Virus record (IMG/VR): IMGVR_UViG_3300027896_000209 | Span: 1-24,502 of that record | Reading direction: 5' to 3' (one strand) | Length of the DNA: 24,502 nt | Source of the DNA: a virus | Part shown: piece by piece, positions 1,303 through 19,544 of the stretch | Layout of the letters: each line of letters opens with the position of its first letter | Position numbering within the stretch: position 1 is the stretch's first letter | Notes under the pieces: model-generated | What the model saw: the letters and a program-made list of their open reading frames with translations, nothing else | Databases searched by the model: none | What the model was told of the DNA's origin: nothing | Translations under genes and position numbers: made by a program

Positions 1303-1330
1303 TTGATTTTTTTACAGATTATGATATAGT
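1303..1330 (+). promoter_or_regulatory. Sigma-70-like promoter giving a predicted leaderless mRNA
   Basis: TTGATT (1303-1308), 16-base spacer, TATAGT (1325-1330), then six bases to the ATG at 1337. The expected start of transcription, about 7 bases after the -10 box, is the A of the ATG. No Shine-Dalgarno sequence is present. An alternative TATGAT at 1320-1325 would leave an 11-base spacer, which is too short. Confidence 0.6.
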
Positions 1331-1336
1331 GATACA

Positions 1337-2329
1337 ATGGAAACGAAAGAACAACTGCTCTACTTCTTCCTGCAGGGGAAGATTAGTCTAAGCCAATATG
1401 ACTACAAGTTTCTTGCAAACTTGCAGACGATGGTCCATAATGATAGCAGGGTTACATCTAATCAGTCAGACCTGTTTGATAGGCTTATCTCTAAATACAA
1501 CAAGCAATTGGTTAAGCAAGGGATCGACGGAGAGACAGCTATTGCTCTTCCCTGGAAGTCTGTGATTGTTCAGAGTACGCCAGAATATACCGGGGCAACC
1601 GTGATGATTGTAGATGACGATATCACTATTCGAGTTCCGTTTAACAAAACCTTTATCTCAAAATTCAAAGAAATTCCCAACAACACTTTCCATTGGGATA
1701 AGGAACGTAAGAGGTATATAGCAAAGTTTTCTACTACTGCATTGAAGATTGCAGTAACATCTTTGGACAAGTACTTTCCCTCTGTACATTTTTGTGAAAA
1801 CATACAATCTATTTTGGCTGACTTGAAGCAGTACGACTCCGCATTATTTTGGAATCCTACGCTTACACTGGTAAATGACAAACTCATGATTGTTGCAATG
1901 TCATCTGTGCTTGCAGATGTGATTGGTGATATGGAAATAAATCTTGAGCCAATGACATTGTATAACCTTAGTCAGTTGGGTATTGCAATCGATCCTGCAT
2001 TAGTTGAACACGATCCGTTTCTAAAGTTCGCATCAGAACGTGTGACATATGTTGAGGCTTCTGAGGTCGCATCGATAATACCCATGATTCTAGGTCTTGG
2101 TACTAACAAGATACTGTGGGGCAGAGGTCTCGCGCATGGAACGATCGGCAAAGAAATCAAAGAACTGCTGTCTTCAAATGGAATCACCATTGCTGGAAAT
2201 CCCCGCATTTCATCACCCACTGATGATGAACTATGCATGTGCATATCTATCTATGATAGTGGTCCTCTTGCTTCATTCGTTTGCAAGATGATCATCATCA
2301 AGGATTCACGACCAATAGAGGTAAAATGA
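1337..2329 (+). CDS. Unknown protein with a HARP-like segment, coupled to UvsW
   Basis: A 330-residue protein of unknown function. Residues 1-75 are helical, with an LxxGKISLSQYDxKF-type segment. Residues about 100-145 read FNKTFISKF, FHWDKERKRYIAKF and TTALKIA; this pattern of a basic strand, a W-D-x-x-x-x-x-W/Y turn and a helix resembles HARP-type DNA-binding modules of annealing helicases such as SMARCAL1, though that is my reading and is unverified. I see no Walker motifs. Its stop overlaps the UvsW start as ATGA (2326-2329), so the two are translationally coupled. It begins directly after an early-type promoter with no leader. I infer a partner of UvsW in fork or branch processing. Confidence 0.8.
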   Translation: METKEQLLYFFLQGKISLSQYDYKFLANLQTMVHNDSRVTSNQSDLFDRLISKYNKQLVKQGIDGETAIALPWKSVIVQSTPEYTGATVMIVDDDITIRVPFNKTFISKFKEIPNNTFHWDKERKRYIAKFSTTALKIAVTSLDKYFPSVHFCENIQSILADLKQYDSALFWNPTLTLVNDKLMIVAMSSVLADVIGDMEINLEPMTLYNLSQLGIAIDPALVEHDPFLKFASERVTYVEASEVASIIPMILGLGTNKILWGRGLAHGTIGKEIKELLSSNGITIAGNPRISSPTDDELCMCISIYDSGPLASFVCKMIIIKDSRPIEVK

Positions 2330-3786
2330 GAGAAGCAAAAATAATAATCAAAGATGAGGTGAATGTGAAAATCGAGGGTCTTGAATTAGACACTCGAAGA
2401 GCATTGATGAAAAAGTTTGAGTTTGAAAAACCGGGTGCAAGGTATCTTCCTTCTGTTCGACTGGGTAGATGGAATGGTAAGATAAGCTATTTCTCTCTTG
2501 CAGGCAGTACCTTTCTTAATCTGTTGGATCAAATCATTCCATATCTTATGGAACATGACTATGATATTGAAATAGATGATCGTAGACAACCTCATCCTGA
2601 ACTTAAATTCGATGTGGTTAATGAAGACACATTTGCCGATACGTTATGGCCAAAAGGTCATGAACGCGAAGGTCAACCAGTTGTGTTGCGCGATTATCAG
2701 GTAGAGATTGTCAACAACTTCCTAGCTAATCCGCAATCATTGCAAGAAGTAGCAACAGGTGCAGGCAAGACGTTGATGACGGCTGCTCTAGCAAAGAGCG
2801 TAGAGCAATACGGTCGTTCTCTAGTCATTGTGCCCAACACCTCTCTTGTTGTACAGACAGAAGCAGACTTCATCAATCTAGGTTTGGATGTAGGAGTGTA
2901 CTTCGGTGCTCGTAAAGAATACGGAAAGACACACACTATCTGCACTTGGCAATCTCTGAACATTCTATTGAAGAAAATATCAGGGGAAGAAGATCGAGAC
3001 CCTGAAATGGAAGAGTTCTTCTTTGATGACATCGCCTGTGTAATTGTTGACGAAGTTCATATGGCTAAAGCTGATGTACTAAAGACAATGCTTACTGGAG
3101 TTTTTTCTAACATTCCTATTCGATGGGGACTTACAGGAACTATTCCAAAAGCAGCAATGGATAAAGTCTCGCTGCTAGTGTCTCTTGGTCCTGTAATCGG
3201 AAAGCTCTCTGCAAGTGAACTACAAGATCGCGGTGTTTTAGCTAACTGTCACGTTAACATTGTGCAGCTAAAGGACAAAGTGGAGTTCACGAACTATCAG
3301 TCAGAACTTAAACATCTGCTAGAAGATGAAAACCGTCTAGATAAAATGGCTGATCTAATCAGAGAGGTCAATAAAACCGGTAACACTTTGGTCCTAGTAG
3401 ACCGAGTGAATGCAGGTAAAGAGTTAGTGAGCCGATTAGACAACGCGGTGTTCGTTAACGGTGGCACTAAACTCACAGAACGAAAGGAAGAATATGATGA
3501 AGTGGCCACGAGTGATGACAAGATTATTGTCGCCACGTATGGCGTTGCGGCTGTCGGTATCAATATTCCTCGTATCTTTAACTTGGTACTTATTGAGCCT
3601 GGTAAGTCGTTTGTACGTGTTATTCAAAGTATTGGGCGCGGCATAAGAAAAGCAGAAGACAAGGACTTCGTGCAGATTTGGGATATCACAAGCTCATGTA
3701 AGTTTGCGAAAAGACATCTTACCCAGCGCAAGGTCTTTTATAAAGAAGCCCATTACCCCTTTACAATAGAGAAATTGGATTATTAA
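2326..3786 (+). CDS. uvsW: UvsW-like superfamily 2 DNA/RNA helicase
   Basis: A 486-residue SF2 helicase of the T4 UvsW type, which unwinds branched DNA and R-loops and helps switch from origin- to recombination-dependent replication. Motifs: Q-like RDYQ (122-125), Walker A ATGAGKT (143-149), DEVH box (242-245), motif III LTGT (269-272), and motif VI QSIGRGIRK (434-442). The first 110 residues contain the small N-terminal domain (LGRWNGKISYF, 46-56) seen in UvsW. Length is close to T4 UvsW (about 500-590 by annotation). I choose the ATG at 2326, preceded by AGAGG and overlapping the upstream stop, rather than an in-frame ATG at 2281 that lies inside the preceding gene. All catalytic motifs look intact. 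Confidence 0.93.
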   Translation: MREAKIIIKDEVNVKIEGLELDTRRALMKKFEFEKPGARYLPSVRLGRWNGKISYFSLAGSTFLNLLDQIIPYLMEHDYDIEIDDRRQPHPELKFDVVNEDTFADTLWPKGHEREGQPVVLRDYQVEIVNNFLANPQSLQEVATGAGKTLMTAALAKSVEQYGRSLVIVPNTSLVVQTEADFINLGLDVGVYFGARKEYGKTHTICTWQSLNILLKKISGEEDRDPEMEEFFFDDIACVIVDEVHMAKADVLKTMLTGVFSNIPIRWGLTGTIPKAAMDKVSLLVSLGPVIGKLSASELQDRGVLANCHVNIVQLKDKVEFTNYQSELKHLLEDENRLDKMADLIREVNKTGNTLVLVDRVNAGKELVSRLDNAVFVNGGTKLTERKEEYDEVATSDDKIIVATYGVAAVGINIPRIFNLVLIEPGKSFVRVIQSIGRGIRKAEDKDFVQIWDITSSCKFAKRHLTQRKVFYKEAHYPFTIEKLDY

Positions 3787-3790
3787 CATG

Positions 3791-3819
3791 TTGACTTTGA
3801 GCCAATTGTTTGATAGTAT
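3791..3819 (+). promoter_or_regulatory. Sigma-70-like promoter giving a predicted leaderless mRNA
   Basis: TTGACT (3791-3796), 17-base spacer, TAGTAT (3814-3819, matching TAnnnT), then six bases to the ATG at 3826. Predicted transcription start is the A of the ATG; no Shine-Dalgarno sequence is present. A TATAAC at 3817-3822 is an alternative -10 box but gives a 20-base spacer. Confidence 0.5.
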
Positions 3820-3825
3820 AACATT

Positions 3826-4329
3826 ATGAGAATACTCACTTTAGAAGAAAATCGCTACTTTAACTTGGAACAACTTCCAGAAGAAGTAGATGATATACGT
3901 TTTGCCATCTTAGATAATTCAACTCCATCTAATGTTGACTATCATTTTATTCCATTGATCTTTCTGGAATCATTCAACTCTCCTGCTCTTGTTCTTAAGA
4001 TCGGAGACAAAGTAATTAGAATGCCAGTTGATTGGCAAGTATTGATAGGAGAACAAGAACATGGTGATTTAGAAACTCTACCACTCTCAAGTCTCAATGA
4101 CAGAGGGTTTCATGCATTTGAGTTTAATCCATTGACTTCGTTTTCTCCTTCTTTCTTACCGATAGAAATTTTGGACATCTATCCAGACGTAACTTGGTAT
4201 GCACCGAGAATGAGAAACGGTCAATTTCTCTGTGTCCCTATCGATGATGGAGAAAAACCAAGATGCGTGTATTTTGTAAAAGAAATCAGTCGTAATTGTG
4301 AAGTAGTTGACTACAGCCAGGTATTTTAA
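3826..4329 (+). CDS. Conserved hypothetical protein behind an early-type promoter
   Basis: A 167-residue soluble protein with a mixed alpha/beta look and no motif I can assign. Notable stretches are PLIFLESFNSPAL (43-55), a KIGDKVIRMPVDWQVLIGEQE block (58-78) and a C-terminal FLCVPIDDGEKPR segment. There are no membrane segments, cysteine clusters or nucleotide-binding loops. The start is fixed by the promoter six bases upstream and by the absence of any other ATG between promoter and ORF. Expression is probably early, in the same class as primase and UvsW. I recall no assigned function. Confidence 0.8.
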   Translation: MRILTLEENRYFNLEQLPEEVDDIRFAILDNSTPSNVDYHFIPLIFLESFNSPALVLKIGDKVIRMPVDWQVLIGEQEHGDLETLPLSSLNDRGFHAFEFNPLTSFSPSFLPIEILDIYPDVTWYAPRMRNGQFLCVPIDDGEKPRCVYFVKEISRNCEVVDYSQVF

Positions 4330-4339
4330 AGGAGTAAGT

Positions 4340-4471
4340 ATGATCAAGGAATCGTTAATTCAAGAGTTTCAGAAGAACAACAAAGAATCTGACATCATGG
4401 GTGTCGTTCGCACTCTATATCCAAATATTGAAGTGTCGATTCCGACGGCAAAGAAGAGCAAGAAGAAATGA
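4340..4471 (+). CDS. Small basic hypothetical protein
   Basis: A 43-residue ORF with a strong ribosome site (AAAGGAG at 4328-4334, five bases before the ATG). It begins 10 bases after the preceding stop, so it belongs to that transcript. The N-terminal half is amphipathic helix (ESLIQEFQKNN) and the C-terminal tail is a lysine cluster (AKKSKKKK-like, 38-43), which suits nucleic-acid or acidic-protein binding. No family recognised. Confidence 0.65.
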   Translation: MIKESLIQEFQKNNKESDIMGVVRTLYPNIEVSIPTAKKSKKK

Positions 4472-4498
4472 TGCTTAGTATTGCAGGGTAGGACTGAT

Positions 4499-4858
4499 AT
4501 GTCAAATGGGCCAGCAAGTAGTTATATCTCGGCTAATTATATTCCAGTTGAGCCGCCGCGTAAAAGAAAGGTAAAGAAGATGAATTGGTTTAAGAGAAAG
4601 TTTGCACAGTGGTCACGTGAAGCATGGGAATATGCTCACAATAGTACAGAGCTTAAGGCAGTAGATCGTAATAGCCCTGATGCTAGAACCAGCATGAGGT
4701 TCACTGTTTATCCAGCTTCGGGAGGATATGTTATTGAGCATTATCGTTATGAGCGCCACAAGGATGGTGACGGTCCTAGCTTGACTATCGTTAACAACGG
4801 TGAAAGTCTTGGTACCGCAGTTGAACACATTCTTGCAATTGAGGCGTTGAAGTTATGA
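4499..4858 (+). CDS. Conserved hypothetical protein, basic N-terminus
   Basis: A 119-residue protein. Residues 19-27 are very basic (PPRKRKVKK), followed by MNWFKRKFAQW, and the C-terminal half (66-119) is a beta-rich domain beginning MRFTVYPASGGYVIEHYRY and ending in a helix. I place the start at the ATG at 4499, with GGTAGGA just upstream. A second in-frame ATG at 4580 (residue 28) follows a purine-rich GGTAAAGAAG and could start a 92-residue form. A TTG at 4481 is less likely. Function unknown; its last codon overlaps the next small ORF. Confidence 0.7.
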   Translation: MSNGPASSYISANYIPVEPPRKRKVKKMNWFKRKFAQWSREAWEYAHNSTELKAVDRNSPDARTSMRFTVYPASGGYVIEHYRYERHKDGDGPSLTIVNNGESLGTAVEHILAIEALKL

Positions 4859-4911
4859 AGTTTGAAATCAATAAAGAAGCTGTTCAATGTATAAAGGAAA
4901 CAAAGGAATGA
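4855..4911 (+). CDS. Possible 18-residue linking peptide
   Basis: An 18-codon ORF (begins MKFEINKEAV) whose ATG overlaps the upstream stop (ATGA, 4855-4858) and whose stop overlaps the next start (ATGA, 4908-4911). The double overlap would let ribosomes pass between its neighbours. It may be a remnant of a longer gene or only a re-initiation bridge. It has no ribosome site of its own. Confidence 0.35.
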   Translation: MKFEINKEAVQCIKETKE

Positions 4912-5189
4912 GCGATATTAAAGTAGCTCGTATCAATATAGAACCTACTGGTGATAGCCCTAATTTCTACTTCCACATGCTGCGCCGCACTGCCGGCGGA
5001 ACTGAAATTCTCAAGCAACCATTCAAGCTCGCAGACTTAAAGATTCCTGATTATGATTTGGACGAAGCCATCAAAAAGGCATATGATGAATGCTTGAATA
5101 AGTGGTACAACAGTGATATGGATGCATCTGTCTTTGTAATCTCTTACAATGGTAAAAACCTAGTATATCAAAACCCGCAGGCAATTTAA
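4908..5189 (+). CDS. Hypothetical protein
   Basis: A 93-residue protein with an N-terminal strand pair (KVARINIEP, FYFHMLRR), a helix DLDEAIKKAYDECLNKWY (52-69) and a final strand pair (ASVFVISYNGKNLVY). I start it at the ATG at 4908, 9 bases after AAGGA (4894-4898). An in-frame ATG at 4887 lacks a ribosome site. It shares one base with the following WGR-like gene. No function can be assigned. Confidence 0.7.
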   Translation: MSDIKVARINIEPTGDSPNFYFHMLRRTAGGTEILKQPFKLADLKIPDYDLDEAIKKAYDECLNKWYNSDMDASVFVISYNGKNLVYQNPQAI

Positions 5190-5488
5190 TGAAGTACGAA
5201 TTTATCGGCTGGTGCCATGAAGGCATTCACGATAAAATATGGGGAGTTATACCTCTTAGGGAAAGTGCAGTAGTTTTTGGCGGATCCTATCTTATCTTTT
5301 GGGGCCGTCGGGGCCGTAAGTTGCAGACAAAAATCATTGAGGATGCTGCTTGGGGCATCAATGATAAAATTTTATCCAAGAAAGAACGCGGATATATTGA
5401 AGTTGACCCTGATAAGCTTGATGAATTGTACCCTGAGTTCAAAAGCGATCTAAGTAAAACAGCAATGTGGGCATTGTTAAAGGTGTAA
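5189..5488 (+). CDS. WGR-like domain protein
   Basis: A 99-residue single-domain protein. IGWCHEGIHDKIWGVI (6-21) is followed by YLIFWGRRGRKLQTKI (34-49), which contains the Trp-Gly-Arg signature at W38-G39-R40. Then comes a KILSKKERGYIEVD segment (60-73), which fits the helix and KxxKGY part of the WGR fold. In PARP1 the WGR domain contacts DNA ends; in bacteria WGR proteins are often stand-alone or fused to other domains. A nucleic-acid contact role here is inference. The ATG shares a base with the previous stop (TAATG). The assignment rests on motif order, not on a search. Confidence 0.7.
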   Translation: MKYEFIGWCHEGIHDKIWGVIPLRESAVVFGGSYLIFWGRRGRKLQTKIIEDAAWGINDKILSKKERGYIEVDPDKLDELYPEFKSDLSKTAMWALLKV

Positions 5489-5489
5489 T

Positions 5490-6077
5490 ATGGCTAAAGA
5501 AAAACTCTCAGCAGACGAAAAGTTTGAAAAGGTTGACTTTGACTTGTTTGATGCACTGACTGCCATAGACAAGAAGGACTACTCGTATTACGATAGATTG
5601 ACAGTTGAACAGCAGAAGAAGTTCATTCCGTTCATGATGATTCATTGGATAAGTACAGTAAAGGCAAACTCTGATATTCAGTCCTACTATCTACAAAGCA
5701 CTGAATATCATGCTAACAGGTATCTGTTCAATGAAAACGTACAGAAGCATCCCAAGCTACAATGGTTGATGTTGTGTGCTGCATCGCCGGGACTTGGAAA
5801 GCAATTTCATCAATGGATACCGCACATCAAAGAGCGAGTCAGTAAGCTAAAAGAATCTCCGAAGTACAAAGACATTAAGGAGTACTTCAAGAAAATCTAC
5901 CCCAAATCGAATGACGGCGACCTTTCCCTTTTGAGTGAGGTTTATGTTGACAATCATAAGCGTAGAATGTATCTTGCAAGTAAGTTCCCTAACATAAAAT
6001 ATGACGAAATCGAGTTATTAAGTGACCTTATCACAGACGAAGATATTAAGCAATATGAAGAAGACTGGGGTAACTAA
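5490..6077 (+). CDS. Candidate clamp-loader small subunit (gp62-like)
   Basis: A 195-residue, largely helical protein. The N-terminal pattern DLFDALTAIDKKDYSYYD (18-35), the segment KKFIPFMMIHW and a central QKHPKLQWLMLCAASPGLGKQ block recall the gp62-type small subunits of sliding-clamp loaders in marine T4-like phages. These pair with an ATPase subunit (gp44) to load gp45. I see no Walker A motif: PGLGKQ lacks the final G-K-S/T. No gp44 or gp45 gene is in the window, so the usual neighbours are missing. AAAGG lies before the start. It overlaps the next gene by 23 bases. The call is from remembered family patterns and is tentative; the gene itself is secure. Confidence 0.6.
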   Translation: MAKEKLSADEKFEKVDFDLFDALTAIDKKDYSYYDRLTVEQQKKFIPFMMIHWISTVKANSDIQSYYLQSTEYHANRYLFNENVQKHPKLQWLMLCAASPGLGKQFHQWIPHIKERVSKLKESPKYKDIKEYFKKIYPKSNDGDLSLLSEVYVDNHKRRMYLASKFPNIKYDEIELLSDLITDEDIKQYEEDWGN

Positions 6078-6750
6078 AACAGAATTCCAGTGTGAGTTCT
6101 GTAGTAGGTATTTCCAAAAGGAAACTACATGGATGAATCATCTGTGTGAAAGCAAGCGCAGATGGCAAGATCGTGATTTGGCTGGAAACCGCATCGGGTT
6201 TCAATCATGGCTTCGATTCTACAAGAAGAACACCAACAAGAAACAACTGACCTACGTAGATTTTGCGAAGTCGGCATACTACATTGCCTTTGTGAAGTTT
6301 GGTCATTACTGCGTTAATGTCAAAGTGATCAACGTAAATCGTTATGCTGACTGGTTGCTTGACAATAAGCTAAAGATTGACAACTGGTGCAGTGACGTAA
6401 ACTACAATAAGTTCTTGATTCAGTATCTAAAAGACGAAGATCCGCTAGATGCAATAGCCCGTAGTATCGAGACTACGATTGATATTGCTAAGGAAGCAGG
6501 AGTACAGAGCAAAGATTGCTTACGGTATGTGAATCGAAATCGACTAGCACAGATGGTGTCAAATGGAAAGATTAGCCCATGGATGCTCTATCACAGTGAG
6601 AGTGGTATTGCGTTTCTTGAAGCTCTAGACGAGGTGCAACAGAAATATATTCTGGAGTACATCAATCCCGAACAGTGGGCAGTAAAGTTCAAGCGTGATC
6701 CAGAAATGGTAACACAAGTCAAGCAACTTTTGGCAGCAGGAGGCTACTGA
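6055..6750 (+). CDS. Conserved phage protein with an N-terminal zinc-finger-like motif
   Basis: A 231-residue protein. The N-terminus has C13-x2-C16, an aromatic pair and then H29-x-C31 (FQCEFCSRYF, NHLCESKRR), a compact Cys/His site that probably binds zinc. The rest is helical and ends QLLAAGGY. I take the ATG at 6055 because the zinc site begins 12 residues in; the ORF is open upstream to 6022 inside the previous gene. It overlaps that gene by 23 bases and shares one base with the next. I recall homologues next to replication genes in marine T4-like phages, all of unknown function. DNA or RNA binding is inference. Confidence 0.75.
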   Translation: MKKTGVTKTEFQCEFCSRYFQKETTWMNHLCESKRRWQDRDLAGNRIGFQSWLRFYKKNTNKKQLTYVDFAKSAYYIAFVKFGHYCVNVKVINVNRYADWLLDNKLKIDNWCSDVNYNKFLIQYLKDEDPLDAIARSIETTIDIAKEAGVQSKDCLRYVNRNRLAQMVSNGKISPWMLYHSESGIAFLEALDEVQQKYILEYINPEQWAVKFKRDPEMVTQVKQLLAAGGY

Positions 6751-6968
6751 TGGATAGCAGAATCGTCCAAGTCAATATCGACTATGAAAATAGACGGGAT
6801 GATGAAGAAGATTTAGAAAAATGGGCCCTTCGTAACTGTGATGGTTTTCTCGGTACGTACAGTAACTGGCAGCAGTATCAACCGGTAAGAAATGATCATG
6901 TCTCAGTCAGGACATTCTATTTTAACAACGAAAAATCAGCGATGATATTTTTGTTGCGATGGTTATGA
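6750..6968 (+). CDS. Small phage protein, tandem family member 1
   Basis: A 72-residue acidic protein. A helix EDLEKWALRNC (20-30) is followed by an aromatic loop and a terminal pair of strands with FYFNNEKSAMIFLLRWL (56-72). The ending F-x-F-x-x-E/D-x-A-x-x-F-x-L-R-W is one I recognise from many short phage ORFans. Start overlaps the previous stop as TGATG. The next three genes have the same plan (see the tandem finding). Function unknown. Confidence 0.7.
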   Translation: MDSRIVQVNIDYENRRDDEEDLEKWALRNCDGFLGTYSNWQQYQPVRNDHVSVRTFYFNNEKSAMIFLLRWL

Positions 6969-6969
6969 T

Positions 6970-7203
6970 ATGTTAGACCATTATGACCGAGAACGTGGAT
7001 GGGAAAACACCAAGCCGGGATGGTATGAAGTATCAGTGAATATTTATGGTACTATCGGGAAATATACAGAGGTTTTACTCTGGCTCAAAGAACACATTGA
7101 CATGCATGAACGTCACTGTCGCTGGATATATCAGGGTGACACAATGGATGTTAAATTTAGATATCAGAAGGATTACGTATGGTTCAATCTAACATGGGGA
7201 TAA
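6970..7203 (+). CDS. Small phage protein, tandem family member 2
   Basis: A 77-residue protein, starting two bases after the preceding stop. Plan: strand YEVSVNIYG (19-27), helix TEVLLWLKEHI (33-43), aromatic RWIYQG, and a final strand pair VKFRYQKDYVWFNLTWG (61-77). The ending again matches a hydrophobic F-R-[YF]-x-K/N-D-x-x-x-F-x-L-x-W rule. It overlaps the next gene by 25 bases, so translation of the two is probably linked. Function unknown. Confidence 0.7.
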   Translation: MLDHYDRERGWENTKPGWYEVSVNIYGTIGKYTEVLLWLKEHIDMHERHCRWIYQGDTMDVKFRYQKDYVWFNLTWG

Positions 7204-7460
7204 GAGCACCATTTGATTACGACATTCCTAAAGAACACAAGATTAAAAAGAAAATCCAAATAAATGGCAACTGGGAAGATATGCAGTTCATCAGAATGCC
7301 TGTTGCTGGTACCGATAGGCTAACTAAAGGAAAATCTGATCTAGAGAAATGGTGTTACGAACACTATGGTGAACCTAAATATTTGGGAAGATGGTGCAAA
7401 GTTTCAGGATATATCATTTTAGATGAGAGAACCTATGTTCACTGGAAGTTGTGTGAATAA
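7179..7460 (+). CDS. Small phage protein, tandem family member 3
   Basis: A 93-residue protein with AGAAGGA (7166-7172) six bases before the ATG, inside the previous gene. The first 45 residues are basic (HKIKKKIQING). A helix DLEKWCYEHYG (54-64) and a final strand pair, GYIILDERTYVHWKLCE (77-93), repeat the plan of its neighbours. The stop shares one base with the next start. Function unknown. Confidence 0.7.
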   Translation: MVQSNMGIRAPFDYDIPKEHKIKKKIQINGNWEDMQFIRMPVAGTDRLTKGKSDLEKWCYEHYGEPKYLGRWCKVSGYIILDERTYVHWKLCE

Positions 7461-7747: not shown

Positions 7748-7770
7748 TTATAGAAAGAAGAAAAATAATA

Positions 7771-9688: not shown

Positions 9689-10192
9689 ATGGAACTACTT
9701 AAAGAAAACAGCCCCGAACTATCAGAAGTCTCAGCAGAATGGGACTTTGAGGTTGACGGTTCGCCGGAAGAACTCGTCAAGGAAATGATGAAGTTCATGA
9801 TCAACAATGGTGGAGTTGGTCTCGCTGCACCGCAAGTCGGAATCAGCAAGCGCATCTTTATCATGGGCAACTTTACTAAGATGGTTGCTTGCATCAATCC
9901 TAAGGTTGTTTCTCTGTCAGAAGATAGAATCGCTGATTTGGAAGGATGTCTATCATTCCCTGACTTGTTCATGAAGGTTAAGCGCCCAGTGTCATGCACT
10001 GTGCAGTATCAAAATATAGCAGGTGAAGTCATTGAGCGAGAACTTGTTGGGTTGGAATCTCGTGTGTTCTTACACGAATATGATCACTTGATCGGAATCA
10101 CGTTTGATCAGAGAGTCGGTGATTTGACTTTTAAAATGGCTAAAGAACGAAGAGCCAAAGAAGCAAAGAAGAAGTCTAGGGCAACCGTTTGA
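9689..10192 (+). CDS. def: Peptide deformylase
   Basis: A 167-residue metal-dependent deformylase that removes the formyl group from the N-terminal methionine of new proteins. All three family motifs are present: motif 1 GVGLAAPQVG (42-51), motif 2 EGCLSFP (85-91, metal-binding C87) and motif 3 HEYDH (129-133, the HExxH metal site). It lacks the longer C-terminal helix of many bacterial enzymes and ends in a basic tail (KERRAKEAKKKSR), as known phage deformylases tend to. ATG with AAGGA six bases upstream. In marine phages such enzymes are thought to sustain host, especially photosystem or phage, protein output late in infection. Its 3' end overlaps the minus-strand gene by 17 bases. Confidence 0.95.
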   Translation: MELLKENSPELSEVSAEWDFEVDGSPEELVKEMMKFMINNGGVGLAAPQVGISKRIFIMGNFTKMVACINPKVVSLSEDRIADLEGCLSFPDLFMKVKRPVSCTVQYQNIAGEVIERELVGLESRVFLHEYDHLIGITFDQRVGDLTFKMAKERRAKEAKKKSRATV

Positions 10193-11434: not shown

Positions 11435-11447
11435 GTTACCGTAATAC

Positions 11448-11475
11448 TTGATTTTTGTATCAGGTATGTTACAAT
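11448..11475 (+). promoter_or_regulatory. Sigma-70-like promoter giving a predicted leaderless mRNA
   Basis: TTGATT (11448-11453), 16-base spacer, TACAAT (11470-11475), then six bases to the ATG at 11482. The predicted transcription start is the A of the ATG and no Shine-Dalgarno sequence is present. Confidence 0.6.
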
Positions 11476-11481
11476 ACATTT

Positions 11482-12456
11482 ATGTTTGACATTCTATCTT
11501 TGCTTCCAGGAAAGAAGAAAAGGACCTCTAGCGGTTGGACAAGTGTTAACGCACCTTGCTGTCATCATCGCGGACACAAGCCTGATCGGCGTATGCGCGG
11601 CGGCATTAAATTTAGTGACGGGACAAACTGGTCGTATCACTGTTTCAACTGCGGGTTCAAGTGTGGATTCACACTAGGTAAACAGTTTAGTAGCAATACC
11701 AAATTGATGCTGCATTGGTTGGGTATCGATGATACTCAGGTTACTCAATGGAACCTAGAAAGTCTAAAGCATCGCCATCTGCTTGACATTCTTTTACCTA
11801 CTGTAAAGAAAAAGAAAATCAAATTTGATGAGGTAGAGCTACCCGAAGCAGAACTCATAAACGAGAATAATCCAAAGCATAAAGTGTTTATAGATTATCT
11901 AGCTAAGCGAGGACTCAACCACACTGAGTATCCATATATGGTAACTCCTGATGCTGAAAACAGAAATGCAAATCGTATAATTATTCCCTATACCTTTGGC
12001 AATAAGATAGTAGGTCATGTCAGTCGTTACATCGATGATAGACATCCAAAATATATCAAGCAACAGCAAGCTGGTTATTTGTTTGGTTACGATTTCCAAA
12101 AGCCAGACTGGCAATGCTGTATCGTGGTAGAGGGTGTATTCGATGCTCTCAGTATCAATGGCTGTGCATTGACTTCTAACACGATAAATCCCATACAGAT
12201 AGACTTACTGCGAAATTTAAATAGACCAGTGATTGTGGTTCCGGATCAAGACAGTGCGGGTCTTGAACTCTGTGATCATGCTTTAGAATTGGGCTACAAG
12301 ATCAGCATTCCTGACTGGGGTGACGATGTTAAAGACGTAAATGACGCTGTAGTAAAATACGGCAGACTACCGACTTTGCTAAGTATAATGCAAAACGCAA
12401 CTAATAGCAAAATCAAGATTCAGATAGCGAGAAGAAGAATTGATAACCGAACATAA
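11482..12456 (+). CDS. DNA primase, gp61 type
   Basis: A 324-residue primase that would lay RNA primers for lagging-strand synthesis together with the helicase encoded next. N-terminal zinc site: C26-C27-H28-H29 and C54-x2-C57 in HCFNCGFKCG, typical of DnaG-family zinc ribbons. The RNA polymerase/TOPRIM core has VVEGVFDAL (215-223, catalytic E217) and VPDQDSAG (253-260, D255 and D257). T4 gp61 has 342 residues, so it is full length. I choose the ATG at 11482, exactly at the predicted transcription start; the frame is open to a TTG at 11455 that lies inside the promoter. The 3' end overlaps the helicase start by 17 bases. Confidence 0.92.
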   Translation: MFDILSLLPGKKKRTSSGWTSVNAPCCHHRGHKPDRRMRGGIKFSDGTNWSYHCFNCGFKCGFTLGKQFSSNTKLMLHWLGIDDTQVTQWNLESLKHRHLLDILLPTVKKKKIKFDEVELPEAELINENNPKHKVFIDYLAKRGLNHTEYPYMVTPDAENRNANRIIIPYTFGNKIVGHVSRYIDDRHPKYIKQQQAGYLFGYDFQKPDWQCCIVVEGVFDALSINGCALTSNTINPIQIDLLRNLNRPVIVVPDQDSAGLELCDHALELGYKISIPDWGDDVKDVNDAVVKYGRLPTLLSIMQNATNSKIKIQIARRRIDNRT

Positions 12457-13846: not shown

Positions 13847-13859
13847 AATCAGTTGATTG

Positions 13860-13867
13860 AATAAATA
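13860..13867 (+). promoter_or_regulatory. Late promoter core
   Basis: AATAAATA, followed by a predicted start near 13873 and AGGA about 13 bases before the ATG at 13890. It begins the late unit of three overlapping genes at 13890-16199. Confidence 0.6.
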
Positions 13868-13889
13868 CATTATAGGATCTTTACAAATC

Positions 13890-14138
13890 ATGCAAAAGAA
13901 AACCAAAAGCCTTTTAGAAGAACTCCAGTCATATGGTGAAACTCGTGACATGAATCACATCATTGAGTCACGAGCTTCTAATATCATAACCAGTGCAATC
14001 AACCTTATTGAATTGATGCAAAAGCATTATTCTTCCGAAAAGGCCGAGTTACTTGAAAAGAAATTGATCAGTGCAATCAAGGGTAAAGATCAATCAAGAT
14101 TCTCGAAGTCTATAAGGAAGAAAAATGAAGATCAATGA
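13890..14138 (+). CDS. Small helical late protein
   Basis: An 82-residue, almost fully helical protein: KTKSLLEELQ, then ESRASNIITSAINLIELMQKHY (27-48) and AELLEKKLISAIKGKD. The tail is basic (FSKSIRKK). I recall short relatives in marine T4-like phages beginning with K-T-K-S-L-L-E-E-L, without a known function. Start is the ATG at 13890; the frame is open to a TTG at 13857 that is upstream of the promoter core and so is excluded. It is the first gene of the late unit and overlaps the next by 14 bases. Small assembly or virion-associated protein is inference. Confidence 0.75.
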   Translation: MQKKTKSLLEELQSYGETRDMNHIIESRASNIITSAINLIELMQKHYSSEKAELLEKKLISAIKGKDQSRFSKSIRKKNEDQ

Positions 14139-15057
14139 GTTTAAAAAACCAAAACAAATAGACGAAGGAATGGCTGATAACCTTTTCGGAGCCTATAATG
14201 TACCTGAAAAACTCAGAAACATGTTTTCCGGACAGGATGCAGTGGCTAATCCGGCAAAAGCACAAAAAATCTTCATTAACGATTTCTATTCTAAGATTAA
14301 GTTGGCATTGGACAACGCTGTAAAGAGTGGGCTAGTCAATCCTTCTATTACACAATTTATTCAGCCTCAACCTGGCCAAAAAGAACCATCTACCACTCCA
14401 ACGGCGCCAACAACATCAGCCCCTAAAGCTAGTCCTGCACCTGCTGCTCCAATTACACCTAAACCACCAAAGCCAGCAGGGCCATCTAGCGCACAGCAAA
14501 CAGTGGATGCAGCGAAGCAGCATAGACAAGAAGTAGCAAAGGCTCAGCAAATTCAAGCAGCAGGCAAAGCAGCCGCAGCTAAGCCGGGATATCAAAGAAC
14601 AGCAGCAGACAAGATTGCTATGAAGGCAGCAGGATTGTCCGAAGATGCATATGACAGACTCAATGCTATCTTTGAAAGTATCATGGAAGCCGGCGAGGAA
14701 CCTCAGCAGCAAGGAATTTATCAATTCGTTAGAAATTGGTACGCTGATTATATGGGTAGCCTAAATTGGAAAGCACACGAGCCGCAGATCAATAAACTCT
14801 TGCAAAATGTTCAAACATCGTATAAGACAGATGGAGGAAAAGCAGCATTGTCGCAACTAGCACAAGCAACTTATTCTTTAGCTAGTGCTGCGACCGCAGG
14901 AAAGAATGGAAGTAGACCTTCGTATGATGATTATGAATATTCTGCACCGCAGCCTATACAAAATTTGCCACCTCAGCAAATTAAAAAAGCTATGATATCA
15001 TTGCATAATAGAAACCCATATGAGTATGACCAAATAAAGAAGACTCTTCCAGAATGA
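14125..15057 (+). CDS. Late protein with a Pro/Ala/Gln-rich linker
   Basis: A 310-residue protein in three parts. Residues 1-80 are folded, with NVPEKLRNMFSGQDAV and a helix QKIFINDFYSKIKLALD. Residues 80-165 are low complexity, rich in Pro, Ala, Thr and Gln (APAAPITPKPPKPAG), and flexible. Residues 172-310 form a helical C-terminal domain with AYDRLNAIFESIMEAGE (175-191) and a VRNWYADYMGSLNW block. AAGGAAG precedes the ATG. The stop overlaps the next start as ATGA. Position in a late unit suggests a virion or assembly protein; no specific function recognised. Confidence 0.75.
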   Translation: MKINEFKKPKQIDEGMADNLFGAYNVPEKLRNMFSGQDAVANPAKAQKIFINDFYSKIKLALDNAVKSGLVNPSITQFIQPQPGQKEPSTTPTAPTTSAPKASPAPAAPITPKPPKPAGPSSAQQTVDAAKQHRQEVAKAQQIQAAGKAAAAKPGYQRTAADKIAMKAAGLSEDAYDRLNAIFESIMEAGEEPQQQGIYQFVRNWYADYMGSLNWKAHEPQINKLLQNVQTSYKTDGGKAALSQLAQATYSLASAATAGKNGSRPSYDDYEYSAPQPIQNLPPQQIKKAMISLHNRNPYEYDQIKKTLPE

Positions 15058-16199
15058 GTGATATCAGAGACCTAATCAACAAGATGGAAACTATCAACAA
15101 GGTTATTGTTGAGGGTAAGAGCCACCTCGATCATCCTGAGGATTTGGTGTTCTTGCAGGATGAGGCAGGTGCCAGAAAGGCCATTGATTCGATTAAAACT
15201 GTAGTATCGAATCCAGACAAAATTACGGTCAAGTACGATGGCTATCCTGCTCTAGTATTTGGAAAAGGCTCTGATGGCAAGTTCTCCATCATGGACAAGC
15301 ACATGTTCAACAAGAAAGATGGTTCGGGCCGCAGAGTGTATAGCCCTGAACAATTTGCTCAATACGATGCAGCGCGCGGAGTAGACCGAAGCGACTTGCA
15401 TGAAGTGATTGCTCGTATTTGGCCCGGTCTCGAAAAAGATGATCGCGCCGGCACTGGGTACTACTGGGGTGATTTGCTTTTCAGTCATCCACTTGAAAAT
15501 CACAATGGCGAATATCGTTTCAAAGCAAATCCAAATGGGATATCGTATTCAGTAGATGTGGACAGTGAAGTAGGTAAACTCCTTCAAGGAAAAGATGCAG
15601 CCATCGCAGTGCATCAGTTCATCCCGGCCGATGCTTCATCCACTGAGGAAGCTGTGTCACTGGATGGTACTATTGGAAATCTACAGAATGCATCTAACGT
15701 TGCAATCGTGCCTAGTAAACTTCCAATGACACCTAAGCTTAAGCTTAATAACAGTCTAGTAAAAGTCGCAGAAAAAGAACTTGCACAGTATGGAAGTGCA
15801 GTGCGTGAAATGATGACTACTGCTCCTCAGGCGCGTAATACTTTCAACCAGCTATTCACTGTCTTTGTTAACAAAAAGATTATGTCAGGTAGTCTGACCA
15901 ATCTAGCACGAGATTTTATGGATTTTGTGGAATCTAGACCAATGTCTGAAAAGATGAAAGCTAAGATTTCAGAACACCTGAATCAGCACAAGCAAGGCAT
16001 TATTGGTGCCTTTAAGATTTGGGCTGCAATTTACAATTTGAAGCTTGACGTAGTGAATCAGCTTAACAAGGCAGCAGAGTCAAGTCCTGTCAGAGGACAT
16101 CTAGCAGACGGCAAGCAGACCCAAGAAGGCTTCGTTGCTCAGGGTCTAAAGTTCGTTGATCGTCTAGGATTTAGTCGCCAAAACTTCGCTGGCCGTTGA
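15054..16199 (+). CDS. KxDG nucleotidyltransferase/ligase-like protein (DUF6267-like)
   Basis: A 381-residue protein. ITVKYDGYPALVFG (57-70) matches motif I of covalent nucleotidyltransferases (DNA/RNA ligases, capping enzymes), with K60 as the would-be AMP-binding lysine. GYYWGDLLFS (135-144) fits the motif III position and YRFKANPNGISYS (154-166) lies where motif IV would be, but I cannot find a clear motif V (KxK). The first 55 residues include HLDHPEDLVF, which I associate with a phage family I remember as DUF6267. The helical half from about 230 has no match. Late unit, ATGA overlap with the previous gene. Whether it ligates, adenylates or has lost catalysis is open. Confidence 0.75.
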   Translation: MSDIRDLINKMETINKVIVEGKSHLDHPEDLVFLQDEAGARKAIDSIKTVVSNPDKITVKYDGYPALVFGKGSDGKFSIMDKHMFNKKDGSGRRVYSPEQFAQYDAARGVDRSDLHEVIARIWPGLEKDDRAGTGYYWGDLLFSHPLENHNGEYRFKANPNGISYSVDVDSEVGKLLQGKDAAIAVHQFIPADASSTEEAVSLDGTIGNLQNASNVAIVPSKLPMTPKLKLNNSLVKVAEKELAQYGSAVREMMTTAPQARNTFNQLFTVFVNKKIMSGSLTNLARDFMDFVESRPMSEKMKAKISEHLNQHKQGIIGAFKIWAAIYNLKLDVVNQLNKAAESSPVRGHLADGKQTQEGFVAQGLKFVDRLGFSRQNFAGR

Positions 16200-16227
16200 C
16201 CCAAAACCGACTTTTTTTTCTTCCTGG

Positions 16228-16235
16228 CATAAATA
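16228..16235 (+). promoter_or_regulatory. Late promoter core
   Basis: CATAAATA. T4 spacing places the transcription start at A16241, directly at the foot of the hairpin at 16242-16255. It serves only the gene at 16277-16669. Confidence 0.7.
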
Positions 16236-16241
16236 AATGTA

Positions 16242-16255
16242 TGAGCTTATGCTCA
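16242..16255 (+). promoter_or_regulatory. 5'-terminal mRNA hairpin of the abundant late gene
   Basis: TGAGC (16242-16246), loop TTAT, GCTCA (16251-16255), beginning one base after the predicted transcription start. In read-through RNA it extends by AAATG (16235-16239) pairing with CATTT (16256-16260). The ribosome site AAGGA (16263-16267) stays free. Such 5' hairpins are known to protect mRNA from decay; that role here is inferred. Confidence 0.5.
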
Positions 16256-16276
16256 CATTTATAAGGAAAAATTAAA

Positions 16277-16669
16277 ATGGCACAATTTACAAAGGTCAAT
16301 GGTGACTTTCTACCAGTACTACACTTAGACTATCCAGCATATACCAACTCAGGTATCAACGCTGTAACTCCAAACGTAGCTGTTCAGCCACAGGGTCCAA
16401 AGCTCGACTTCTACACTGCAACTGCTAACGGTTCAGTAACTGGCACTCAGATTCAGGCTGCTTTCCAGACTATCGAACAGCTTTCAACTGTTATGCTTTA
16501 TCAGTATGGTAACGCATCTAACAACACTCTCGCTGTTGGTATTTACCCAGCTGGTGCATGGACTGCTTCTACTCTACAGACTGCACTTCTAAGCACTACT
16601 AACGGTGCTTCATGGCCAACTGGTTCAACTGTTGCTGCTGGTGCATCATTCACTGCTCCAATTGACTAA
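16277..16669 (+). CDS. Probable abundant virion protein
   Basis: A 130-residue protein without charged clusters, rich in Ala, Thr, Asn and Gly. It contains GPKLDFYTATANGSVTGTQ (40-58), then a helix AAFQTIEQLSTVMLYQYG (61-78), and ends ASFTAPID. Codon choice is strongly biased (AAC, GGT, GCT, ACT, CTC), as in very highly expressed genes. It is monocistronic, with its own late promoter, a 5' hairpin and a strong terminator. AAGGA lies nine bases before the ATG. I recall similar short proteins in marine T4-like phages without a fixed name. Capsid decoration or other multi-copy virion part is inference. Confidence 0.75.
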   Translation: MAQFTKVNGDFLPVLHLDYPAYTNSGINAVTPNVAVQPQGPKLDFYTATANGSVTGTQIQAAFQTIEQLSTVMLYQYGNASNNTLAVGIYPAGAWTASTLQTALLSTTNGASWPTGSTVAAGASFTAPID

Positions 16670-16693
16670 TATCAGTTAGACTGACTAAAATAG

Positions 16694-16724
16694 AAAACCC
16701 GGGAATAATCTTCCCGGGTTTTTT
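16694..16724 (+). terminator. Strong intrinsic terminator
   Basis: A stem of 12 base pairs built on AACCCGGGAA (16696-16705) and TTCCCGGGTT (16711-16720), with loop TAATC, extended by flanking A/T pairs and ending in a T-run to 16724. It ends the transcript of the preceding late gene. Confidence 0.95.
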
Positions 16725-16728
16725 GTTG

Positions 16729-16736
16729 AGTAAATA
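16729..16736 (+). promoter_or_regulatory. Late promoter core giving a predicted leaderless mRNA
   Basis: AGTAAATA, directly after the terminator. With T4 spacing (core ends at -6) transcription begins at A16742, which is the A of the next gene's ATG. No Shine-Dalgarno sequence is available. Confidence 0.55.
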
Positions 16737-16741
16737 GATAC

Positions 16742-17188
16742 ATGTCACATCGTATTGTCTGCTATACTCTTTTTGATGTTACCCAGACAGGGGTGATGAC
16801 TCGATCCAAACCAAATGAAGATGATATTCAGGATTGGATGCACAAGCGAAATACTCAGTGTAATTTTGACACACTACTACAAGTCATATCTTTACGTTCA
16901 CAGCCCGAAGTAGTTAAGCTCCCGATAAGACTGGATATGAAAGAAAATGACTTTGCTCGATTTGGTTTTTTGTATGAATACACCGAAGACAGACCTAGCT
17001 ATTGTTGGAAATTTGAATTTGAAGTTCATCATAGCAGTGTCTTCGAAAATGGAATCACTCCTCTAGGATCACTTTACAAAGACTGTGATGGTGTTCCGAT
17101 GTTACACTGCAAAGATCAGGTGAACAAAATGCCTGCTTTTCTAGATGTATCGGATGAGTTGAAAAACGTTTACTTTGAGGTAATATGA
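16742..17188 (+). CDS. Conserved late hypothetical protein
   Basis: A 148-residue protein beginning RIVCYTLFDVTQTGV (4-18), then RNTQCNFDTLLQVISLRSQPEV (36-57), which I recall as the most conserved part of a family found in marine T4-like phages with no assigned role. The rest is mixed alpha/beta with a FGFLYEY strand and WKFEFEV. Single cysteines (C7, C40, C88 area) do not form a clear metal site. The stop overlaps the next start (ATGA, 17185-17188), and the two genes probably act together. The mRNA is predicted to be leaderless. Confidence 0.78.
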   Translation: MSHRIVCYTLFDVTQTGVMTRSKPNEDDIQDWMHKRNTQCNFDTLLQVISLRSQPEVVKLPIRLDMKENDFARFGFLYEYTEDRPSYCWKFEFEVHHSSVFENGITPLGSLYKDCDGVPMLHCKDQVNKMPAFLDVSDELKNVYFEVI

Positions 17189-17670
17189 CAAACGTATCAA
17201 AACTCGATGAATTTTTTGAGCAGGAATTGGCTGTAGTCAAGGAAGTTCTTATAACTCGTGACAAGCAAGGCAAATATTCGTTGTTTGGCAAATACACTAT
17301 TATTCCAACTCCAACAGGCCATTTCAAGACCTTCACTCCTAAACACGCAGAAGAACACGAGTTTTCTACTTTAGTAAATGCAGCATCTTGGTGCACACTG
17401 CACAATGCTGGAAGATTTAAGGAAGCCAGACGTATCGTATCTTTAGACATGCGATTGATCAGCATCAAATCAGACATAGAAAATCACATTAGATTATTAC
17501 AGACAACTACCAATCCATTCTCCAAGCTAACGTACACTATAAAAGCAGAAGAAGACTTGTTGAAGCAAACCAGAATGTTGGAAGAAATGAGTCAACACAT
17601 AAATAGTTCTAAGCGACTCCAGGAAAGAAAATTTCATTCGATGAAACGTCCTGGTTTTATATACCTATGA
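17185..17670 (+). CDS. Conserved late hypothetical protein, coupled partner
   Basis: A 161-residue protein. N-terminal KLDEFFEQELAVVKEV (6-21), strands YSLFGKYTIIP (31-41), then a long charged helical region from about 75 (RRIVSLDMRLISIKSDIENHI, with EEDLLKQTRMLEEMSQHI) likely to form a coiled coil. GAGGT (17176-17180) is four bases before the ATG, within the previous gene. I recall matching gene pairs in marine T4-like phages, function unknown. A late-promoter-like CATAAATA at 17598-17605 lies inside it and may be chance. Confidence 0.78.
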   Translation: MTNVSKLDEFFEQELAVVKEVLITRDKQGKYSLFGKYTIIPTPTGHFKTFTPKHAEEHEFSTLVNAASWCTLHNAGRFKEARRIVSLDMRLISIKSDIENHIRLLQTTTNPFSKLTYTIKAEEDLLKQTRMLEEMSQHINSSKRLQERKFHSMKRPGFIYL

Positions 17671-17676
17671 TAAATA
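17669..17676 (+). promoter_or_regulatory. Late promoter core
   Basis: GATAAATA, with predicted start near 17682 and GGAAG (17689-17693) ten bases before the ATG at 17704. It overlaps the stop codon of the preceding gene. Confidence 0.65.
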
Positions 17677-17703
17677 CTTAACAATACGGAAGAGTTAAAC
17701 ACT

Positions 17704-18444
17704 ATGGAACTTAATGAACTAAACGGAAAGAATGTTGCGCGCAGAGCTTTGAAAGAAAGCTTTTCATACAATTTTGACACATCCAGAATGAACAAGTCTC
17801 AGACTCGTACAATGCTCAGCAAGGTGCGCGGCTTGATTAGTGAATCAAGAATGTCACATGATTTCCATAGAAATCAAACAAACCCAACTCACATGAAGCT
17901 AGTTTTCATGGAGCAGGCATTGTCTTCACACATTAACTATTTGAACTCATTGCCTAAGCCACGTATTGTTGTTGAAAACGAAGAAGTAGAAAAGTCACAG
18001 GTCATTCTTGCAGCACAGGACATGGTTGACTCAGTGCAGAAGATGGTGGAAGAAGTAAGTGACATGTTGGTCAAGGAACTTCCTGCTCTGGCTGACTCAA
18101 TCGAATCAGAAATCGGTGTACAAGAAAGCGAACAGTTTAACTCCCAAGTTTCGCAGGCTCTTGCTTCACTCAATTCTTCACTACAAGAAGCACAAGCTAC
18201 TCTTAAGAGTGCATTGAATAGCATCACTGGAAAGGGTGGTCCTGATTTTGATGCAGATTTAGGTGGCGAAGAAGCTGAATTGGATGCTGACATTGCGGGA
18301 GACGAAGATGCTCTTGGTGCAGATATGGACATGGATGCTGATCTGGATGCAGAACTTCCACCAATGCCGGCCCCAAAGAAGCCGGCTCCTTCAGCAGAAG
18401 AACCAGAAATGAGATTCGGTGGCGCAGGTCGCCCTAAGAGATAA
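17704..18444 (+). CDS. Late virion-associated protein with acidic linker
   Basis: A 246-residue, mainly helical protein. Residues 15-50 (ALKESFSYNFDTSRM, LSKVRGLISESR) and 93-135 (EEVEKSQVILAAQDMVDSVQKM, SDMLVKELPALADSI) are the recognisable blocks. A second helix pair runs to 172. Then 181-218 is a highly acidic Asp/Glu/Ala/Gly stretch (DADLDAELPP end) followed by a Pro/Ala/Lys tail and RPKR. The arrangement suits a scaffold-like or virion core protein, and I recall homologues beside head genes in marine T4-like phages, but the specific role is not known. It shares its transcript with the next gene, which starts 4 bases after its stop. Confidence 0.78.
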   Translation: MELNELNGKNVARRALKESFSYNFDTSRMNKSQTRTMLSKVRGLISESRMSHDFHRNQTNPTHMKLVFMEQALSSHINYLNSLPKPRIVVENEEVEKSQVILAAQDMVDSVQKMVEEVSDMLVKELPALADSIESEIGVQESEQFNSQVSQALASLNSSLQEAQATLKSALNSITGKGGPDFDADLGGEEAELDADIAGDEDALGADMDMDADLDAELPPMPAPKKPAPSAEEPEMRFGGAGRPKR

Positions 18445-18447
18445 TTA

Positions 18448-18786
18448 ATGTATCTCTTTGAATTTGATCAGGATAGCGCACAGGTTGCAAAGATCGTTGC
18501 TTTAACTAGTCAGTTAAAGGATGATGTTGACACGGGCCAAATAAATCCAGATGAATACACAGTAGATGATTTGTTGCATTATTTTCAGGAATATGACGTT
18601 ATTCTTGACAAAACCGATCTCTACAACATGATCAAAGTCAATCCTCTTAAATCAGTAATCAGTAATATTCAGGGTGATAAAGTAGTGTTTAAAGGACACG
18701 ACTCTACCCCTGATACTGAAGAACAACCTGAAGATGATAGCAAGAAAACTGTTGCTAAAATGGCACAGTCAGCAATGAAAAAGTAA
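18448..18786 (+). CDS. Conserved small late protein
   Basis: A 112-residue protein. Residues 8-70 are helical (VAKIVALTSQLKDDVD, TVDDLLHYFQEYDVIL, KTDLYNMIKVNPLKSVI), followed by a strand GDKVVFKG (76-83) and an acidic, flexible tail. The pattern resembles small late proteins of marine T4-like phages located beside the preceding gene, from memory. AAGAG lies seven bases before the ATG. A structural or assembly partner of the preceding product is inference. Confidence 0.75.
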   Translation: MYLFEFDQDSAQVAKIVALTSQLKDDVDTGQINPDEYTVDDLLHYFQEYDVILDKTDLYNMIKVNPLKSVISNIQGDKVVFKGHDSTPDTEEQPEDDSKKTVAKMAQSAMKK

Positions 18787-18793
18787 ATTTTTA

Positions 18794-18821
18794 TTGACTT
18801 TTCTGTAATATAGCGTATAAT
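18794..18821 (+). promoter_or_regulatory. Sigma-70-like promoter giving a predicted leaderless mRNA
   Basis: TTGACT (18794-18799), 16-base spacer, TATAAT (18816-18821, perfect consensus), six bases, then ATG at 18828. Predicted transcription start is the A of the ATG; there is no Shine-Dalgarno sequence. Confidence 0.7.
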
Positions 18822-18827
18822 GCATAT

Positions 18828-19544
18828 ATGGCTATTACTAATAAATTCCCTTATAAAGAAATGAAAAAAGTCAACATTGACGGATCCCGTCGATATTTGA
18901 CTCCGGACGGAGAAAAAGTCCCTAGTGTGACTACTATCCTAGATGCAACTAAATCAGAAGAATCTAAGCAAGCGTTACGTGAATGGCGAAACAGAGTCGG
19001 TCACGCAAAAGCACAAGAGATTACGACTGAGGCAGCGGGTAGAGGTACTCGTATGCACAAATGGATCGAAGATTTTATCAAGCTAGATGTGATCGGTGAG
19101 CCGGGAAGCAATCCATACAGTCAGCAGAGTCATCTGATGGCTCAAGAAATTATCAACAATGGTTTGGTAAAGTGCGATGAATATTGGGGAACAGAAGTCT
19201 CTTTGTTCTTTCCCGAAGTGTACGCAGGAACTACCGACTTGTGCGGTATTCATGATGGCTCAGAAGCTATCATGGATCACAAGCAATCCAACAAAGTCAA
19301 AAAGCGTGAATGGATTGAAGACTATTTTGTTCAGACCGCAGCATACGCATTAGCACACAATGAAGTTTACAACACTAAAATTCGCAAAGGTGTCATCTTC
19401 ATGTGTGTGAAGCCAGAGCTTGTAGATGGTGTATGGGCAAAGCCACAGTACATCGAATTTATCATTGAAGGCAACGAGTTCGACAAGTATACTGATCTTT
19501 GGTACAAGCGACTAGAGAAGTACTACTCAAAGTTTGTGAATTGA
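18828..19544 (+). CDS. PD-(D/E)XK nuclease, Cas4/RecB-like
   Basis: A 238-residue nuclease of the PD-(D/E)XK superfamily. Motifs in order: GRGTRMHKWIE (71-81, the conserved GTxxH helix, H77), E123 in WGTEVSLFF, GTTDL (134-138, D137), MDHKQS (149-154, the DxK catalytic pair D150 and K152), and QTAAYALA (169-176, the QxxxY motif of RecB/Cas4-type enzymes). No four-cysteine iron-sulfur cluster of classical Cas4 is visible. It probably acts on single-stranded DNA or DNA ends in recombination or host DNA degradation. Its own early-type promoter sits among late genes. No terminator follows, so its transcripts may run into the tail-fibre gene. Confidence 0.9.
   Translation: MAITNKFPYKEMKKVNIDGSRRYLTPDGEKVPSVTTILDATKSEESKQALREWRNRVGHAKAQEITTEAAGRGTRMHKWIEDFIKLDVIGEPGSNPYSQQSHLMAQEIINNGLVKCDEYWGTEVSLFFPEVYAGTTDLCGIHDGSEAIMDHKQSNKVKKREWIEDYFVQTAAYALAHNEVYNTKIRKGVIFMCVKPELVDGVWAKPQYIEFIIEGNEFDKYTDLWYKRLEKYYSKFVN

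Follow-up and report, generated by a model that had tools for sequence, protein, structure and literature searches.

Two predicted promoter types of a T4-like jumbo phage group are placed to yield leaderless mRNAs

The virus stretch analysed here (IMG/VR record IMGVR_UViG_3300027896_000209, positions 1 to 24,502, 24,502 nucleotides; hereafter the window) carries four sigma-70-type promoters that all end at the same short distance from an ATG, which raises the question whether phages of this kind make a class of mRNAs without a 5′ leader. The -10 hexamer of a sigma-70 promoter ends at -7, therefore six bases precede the transcription start (+1). Exactly six bases lie between the -10 box and the ATG at all four sites, which are listed here with the genes that they serve.

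1275 to 1296, + strand: terminator-like hairpin with T run, ending immediately upstream of site 1's -35 box
1303 to 1336, + strand: site 1 promoter, TTGATT (1303-1308), 16 bases, TATAGT (1325-1330), gataca, ATG at 1337
1337 to 2329, + strand: gene 1337, 330 amino acids, no family assigned, head of an operon in which a UvsW-type helicase gene (2326-3786) follows
3791 to 3825, + strand: site 2 promoter, TTGACT (3791-3796), 17 bases, TAGTAT (3814-3819), aacatt, ATG at 3826
3826 to 4329, + strand: gene 3826, 167 amino acids, phrog_11279, no function assigned
11448 to 11481, + strand: site 3 promoter, TTGATT (11448-11453), 16 bases, TACAAT (11470-11475), acattt, ATG at 11482
11482 to 12456, + strand: DNA primase (phrog_47, E 3e-38)
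18794 to 18827, + strand: site 4 promoter, TTGACT (18794-18799), 16 bases, TATAAT (18816-18821), gcatat, ATG at 18828
18828 to 19544, + strand: exonuclease (phrog_298, E 1e-50), PD-(D/E)XK-type according to the annotation of relatives

A sequence-only reading of the window had described these sites as early-type promoters for leaderless mRNAs, and its coordinates, boxes, spacers of 16-17 bases, six-base distances and lack of Shine-Dalgarno sequences were all confirmed base by base. The spacers between the -35 and -10 boxes fall within the 15-19 bases taken for sigma-70 promoters at all window sites; an extended -10 (TGn) is present at sites 1-3 and missing at site 4. None of the cores AGGA, GGAG, GAGG and AAGG, sought in the Shine-Dalgarno window, was found at any of the four sites. 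The assignment of the genes served holds for the primase, the exonuclease and one gene without assigned function, whereas the UvsW helicase, named for site 1, is encoded by the second gene behind that promoter; the product of the first, gene 1337, showed no Pfam or PHROG family match.

The exact pattern (TTGAYT, 16 or 17 bases, TAnnnT, six bases, ATG) occurs four times in the window in forward direction and not at all when the window is read backwards, compared with a mean of 0.03 and a maximum of 1 in 300 first-order Markov shuffles. Since the pattern was derived from the same four sites, this figure proves little alone, and the real test is therefore provided by other genomes, which carry the weight of the argument. 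The record is a 24.5 kb virus fragment. Its UvsW helicase shares 50-55% identity with the counterparts in Sinorhizobium phage Phosso, Agrobacterium phage Atu_ph07 and the PA5oct group of Pseudomonas phages; the source is a T4-like jumbo phage and kin of these phages. Its nearest long relative is G001, a contig of 360 kb. Counting the TTGAYT pattern genome-wide against shuffled sequence, the check suggested by the sequence-only reading, gave a clear result in the window but only a slight excess in the relatives (3 against 0.6 expected in G001, 3 against 0.6 in G004 and 1 against 0.65 in G003), because their -35 box is mostly TTGACA-like. This strict form was too narrow as a genome-wide test, and a general promoter score was used instead.

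Genomes were scanned with a general sigma-70 score, and the distance d (the bases between the -10 or late box and the start codon) was determined for every ATG opening an open reading frame of at least 50 codons. A peak at d=6 was found in G001 (15 against a background of 1.8), G002 (20 against 3.4), G003 (8 against 1.4), G004 (9 against 1.7), XacN1 (11 against 0.8) and Phosso (6 against 1.1). With ATG starts it was absent or weak in PA5oct and SCTP-2, and the same scan revealed no d=6 peak in E. coli phage 121Q (1 against a background of 3.0). In the summed histogram of seven relatives, with similar copies collapsed, 50 genes were found at d=6 and 14 at d=7, with 3-14 across d=4-5 and 7-8 and 1-3 at d=10-12; a broad hump of leadered genes at d=20-33 stands separately. 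Shine-Dalgarno cores were present in 1 of 63 genes at d=6 versus 255 of 371 in the hump. This sigma-70 class takes in genes for a DNA polymerase-like protein and a deoxynucleoside monophosphate kinase as well as for HNH endonucleases.

The spacing is also retained in orthologous genes. Of 53 distinct upstream regions of gene 3826 orthologues, 45 had d=6 as the best fit. Conservation among orthologues falls mostly on the -35 and -10 boxes, most plainly for this gene, and the six bases before its ATG are largely variable. One orthologue (L379, position 1501) is an exception, having its promoter farther upstream, a leader with GGAG and ATT in place of ATG. The six-base spacing of site 1 is retained in the relatives L005 and L007 and also in the relative G003 (89697). 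The hairpin with T run upstream of site 1 is likewise present in L005 and L007, and it would cut gene 1337 off from upstream transcription. Near orthologues of the primase showed d=6 in 32 of 38 cases, the remainder having 5, 7 or 8. For distant primases, searches with single sequences (XacN1, 121Q, Phosso) recovered few relatives, and an alignment of 11 divergent primases was used as query instead, which yielded 80 loci with about 35% identity to it. Here the promoter was located at d=6 in 63 loci and at d=7 in 11; these 74 all lack a Shine-Dalgarno sequence, and their start codon is ATG in 69 and GTG in 5 (TTG was not accepted in the scan). Other distances were represented by 0 to 5 loci each, except for 11 at d=15, which among the loci listed stem from another start codon that lies nine bases farther inside the gene. 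PA5oct (GTG), SCTP-2, XacN1 and Stenotrophomonas phage CM1 likewise have a primase of the leaderless type. The primase is leadered, always with a Shine-Dalgarno-like sequence, in Phosso, Atu_ph07, 121Q, Vibrio 2.275, XaC1, XbC2, GAP32, RaK2, CBB, Munch and Hallingskeid; besides the Shine-Dalgarno sequence, these orthologues retain a box resembling a -10 some 30 bases upstream. The N-termini of leaderless and leadered primases align, and a provisional primase tree with some long branches suggests that the leadered state needs two changes.

T4 late promoters consist of a TATAAATA-type box without a -35 element and depend on the phage sigma factor gp55. Since the T4 late box spans 8 bp from -13 onward (PMC2988020), five bases precede +1. 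One gene of the window has a late-type box at just this distance.

16694 to 16722, no strand given: strong GC-rich hairpin with T run, directly ahead of the late-type box
16731 to 16741, + strand: T4-late-type box TAAATA (16731-16736), five bases, ATG at 16742; leaderless candidate with a core shorter than ATAAATA
16742 to 17188, + strand: gene 16742, 148 amino acids, no function assigned, served by the late-type box

This box is retained in G001, G002, G003 and G004 and is exactly five bases from the ATG in the first three; a hairpin-like sequence with T run stands at the matching place in all four. Other late-type boxes of the window, for instance ahead of 16277 and 23900, are followed by leaders with a Shine-Dalgarno sequence. 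Summed over the seven relatives with similar copies collapsed, the late class (ATAAATA-type) has its peak of 69 genes at d=5, with another 31 at d=4 and a leadered hump apart from them, and Shine-Dalgarno cores were found in 7 of 140 genes at d=4-5 versus 153 of 301 at d=18-32. No conserved -35 box and no upstream conservation were seen in this class, which includes genes for virion structural proteins. A gp55-like sigma match was obtained in five of nine genomes (G001, G002, G004, SCTP-2 and XacN1) with E values of about 1e-5 to 1e-6. The peaks at d=6 and d=5 differ by one base, just as the predicted geometries of the two promoter types would have it. That two types of unlike geometry should both put +1 on the A of the ATG is the strongest sequence evidence for leaderless mRNAs. 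The leaderless class with sigma-70-type promoters proposed by the sequence-only reading is thus strongly supported by spacing conservation, distance peaks, Shine-Dalgarno absence and the independent late-type peak at the distance predicted for its own promoter type, but its restriction to early-type promoters has to be given up, since late-type promoters share the layout.

From the promoter positions, the conserved spacing and the missing Shine-Dalgarno sequences we infer that transcription starts at the start codon, and we consider it very probable that both the sigma-70-type (d=6) and the T4-late-type (d=5) promoters of this jumbo-phage group yield leaderless mRNAs, beside the leadered class that coexists in the same genomes. 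Promoters of the host sigma-70 type (TTGACA, about 17 bases, often TGnTATAAT), located exactly six bases ahead of the ATG, would drive genes of replication and recombination as well as nucleotide genes. Those of the T4 late type (ATAAATA), exactly five bases ahead of the ATG, would drive other genes, virion genes included. The resulting mRNAs would lack both a 5′ leader and a Shine-Dalgarno sequence and would be initiated at the 5′-terminal AUG, most likely via the known leaderless route, with the 70S ribosome or the 30S subunit and initiation factor 2 (IF2) together with initiator tRNA; leaderless mRNAs are spared by kasugamycin. Several points weigh against this interpretation. The transcription start is predicted from promoter geometry, and a start shifted by one or two bases may give a very short leader instead; promoter identity is likewise a matter of consensus matches. 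The exonuclease site is less conserved, with a best d=6 in 14, d=5 in 7 and no site in 10 of 42 distinct upstream regions. PA5oct shows no general d=6 excess at ATG, even if two of its genes agree with the layout, the primase (GTG at 145890 of MK797984) and the exonuclease (ATG at 158242). In favour of the interpretation, the terminator-like hairpins directly ahead of site 1 and of the box of gene 16742 leave little room for another start.

That AT-rich sequence near gene starts mimics promoters and four matches were picked by chance is an explanation with negligible probability. The pattern was indeed set after the four sites had been viewed, and its TTGAYT form is weakly in excess in relatives, but the spacing is indeed hard to ascribe to chance, with 4 sites against 0.03 in shuffles, 59 against 6.7 genes at d=6 when independent genomes are combined, and orthologues that keep the distance; 121Q, a comparable AT-rich jumbo phage, has no peak. 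Chance is already refuted by the independent genomes. Very improbable, too, is that the boxes are promoters while translation proceeds from longer transcripts by read-through or coupling. The genes upstream of sites 2-4 stop 39-47 bases ahead of them without a strong terminator in between, which would allow it, whereas terminator-like hairpins precede site 1 and the box of gene 16742, in relatives too, the starts have no Shine-Dalgarno sequence and a fixed spacing would be needless. It is quite possible that promoters are simply pressed against genes to save space, so that leaderlessness would be a side effect without translational gain. Intergenic gaps are short, and the hosts, like Caulobacter (PMC4117421), may be efficient at translating leaderless mRNAs anyway; compaction is not general, however, because the same genomes retain a larger leadered class with leaders of 20-33 bases and Shine-Dalgarno sequences.

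Rather unlikely, in our estimate, is a translation switch, in which leaderless mRNAs would be favoured under altered initiation (low initiation factor 3 (IF3), extra initiator tRNA, modified 30S subunits), as proposed for Thermus phage phiYS40. This phage reportedly raises IF2 and lowers IF3 (PMC3594737). Leaderless translation is inhibited by IF3 and strongly promoted by a greater supply of initiator tRNA (PMC9031893). The primase is leadered in all 11 named phages that have their own IF3, and IF3 is lacking in the leaderless relatives examined first, in keeping with that inhibition. The rule that a phage IF3 excludes a leaderless primase held in the first 18 informative named or long relatives, but it was refuted by G016 and G017, which have both; G017 also shows the late d=5 peak. 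The leadered primases fall into two groups of the primase tree, therefore the correlation with IF3 rests on few independent events. Phage IF3 genes were located at W01 382560, W02 256, W04 34184, W07 31957, G016 154940 and G017 292719. Initiator-like tRNAs (C1 and A72, or T1 and C72) are encoded by G001, G002, PA5oct and SCTP-2 and probably by G004, whose predicted gene has its start one base too far inside, whereas G003 and XacN1 show the peak without one; initiator tRNA was dropped as a general cause and kept as a lead. CAT-anticodon tRNAs whose first acceptor position is unpaired, a feature of initiator tRNA, lie in G001 (254579-254657), G002 (425551 and 117504, positions in joined pieces), PA5oct (270167) and SCTP-2 (298006). 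Phage ribosomal protein S21, also considered as a determinant, was unrelated to the leaderless state. The host as sole driver was rejected as well: the primase is leadered in the Xanthomonas phages XaC1 and XbC2 and leaderless in XacN1, therefore host genus alone is not decisive. With the IF3 rule broken and initiator tRNA patchy, compaction and a translational advantage are therefore both possible.

Among known systems, phiYS40 comes close: it is a tailed phage, too, and many of its mRNAs (middle and late genes) are leaderless. For leaderless phage genes an extended -10 (TGnTA) like the present one has been cited (PMC4842269, PMC3594737). The system differs in that its host phylum is rich in leaderless genes, whereas the present phages are T4-like jumbo phages with cultured relatives on Proteobacteria and a late class with a T4-late-type box. 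In Deinococcus-Thermus a TAnnnT box 6-7 bp ahead of the open reading frame, like that of the sigma-70 class, gives leaderless transcripts that were tested experimentally (PMC12340547), but these are bacterial genes often without a -35 box, while the phage sites mostly have a good one at 16-17 bases. Many leaderless mRNAs are made by alpha-proteobacteria (375 genes in Caulobacter, 171 in Sinorhizobium), and Caulobacter translates them about as well as others (PMC4117421); those, however, are host genes. T4 late promoters (gp55, gp33, gp45) share the ATAAATA-type box without a -35 with the late class, but the 50 kb of T4 examined showed no d=5 peak (2 cases), most boxes being 26-29 bases ahead of the ATG. 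The classical leaderless phage mRNA, lambda cI from PRM (cited in PMC9031893), concerns a single regulatory gene and not, as here, a class of replication and virion genes. Transcripts of giant phages have been termed 'often leaderless', yet the leaders given for AR9 are 26-491 nt long (PMC5312081). The word leaderless is absent from a 2026 review of jumbo phages, and a search covering part of the literature found no report of a leaderless class in T4-like jumbo phages.

In most bacteria leaderless mRNAs are regarded as uncommon, and the phage examples concern for the most part single genes or phiYS40. With its distance fixed, the layout described here recurs at the primase gene of about a hundred diverse phage contigs as well as in cultured Pseudomonas, Xanthomonas, Salicola and Stenotrophomonas phages, and it reaches late genes. 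It is a natural experiment on why viruses retain leaderless beside leadered genes, one for which cultured relatives exist. We suggest, tentatively and with some doubt, a phage-wide two-stage leaderless programme, in which early sigma-70 and late gp55-type promoters would both initiate at the AUG. A particular set of phage proteins would then be made from leaderless mRNAs and might be favoured during infection, in some members with the aid of a phage initiator tRNA.

A practical consequence concerns annotation, since annotated primase starts deviate from the predicted leaderless starts. They are 32 codons downstream in SCTP-2 and 51 codons downstream in XacN1 (L221 1480, L222 record position 86255), and the GTG annotated in PA5oct lies 2 codons upstream. 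In G002, near-identical promoters (TTGACAATAAAT...TATAAT-N6-ATG) were found ahead of several short genes (52190, 103645, 103907, 430326 and 483222), as if a mobile gene family brought along its own leaderless promoter. Two adjacent HNH endonuclease genes of G001 (319444 and 319976) have similar leaderless-type promoters. The window also contains a gene for peptide deformylase (9689-10192), an enzyme that acts on formylmethionine ends.

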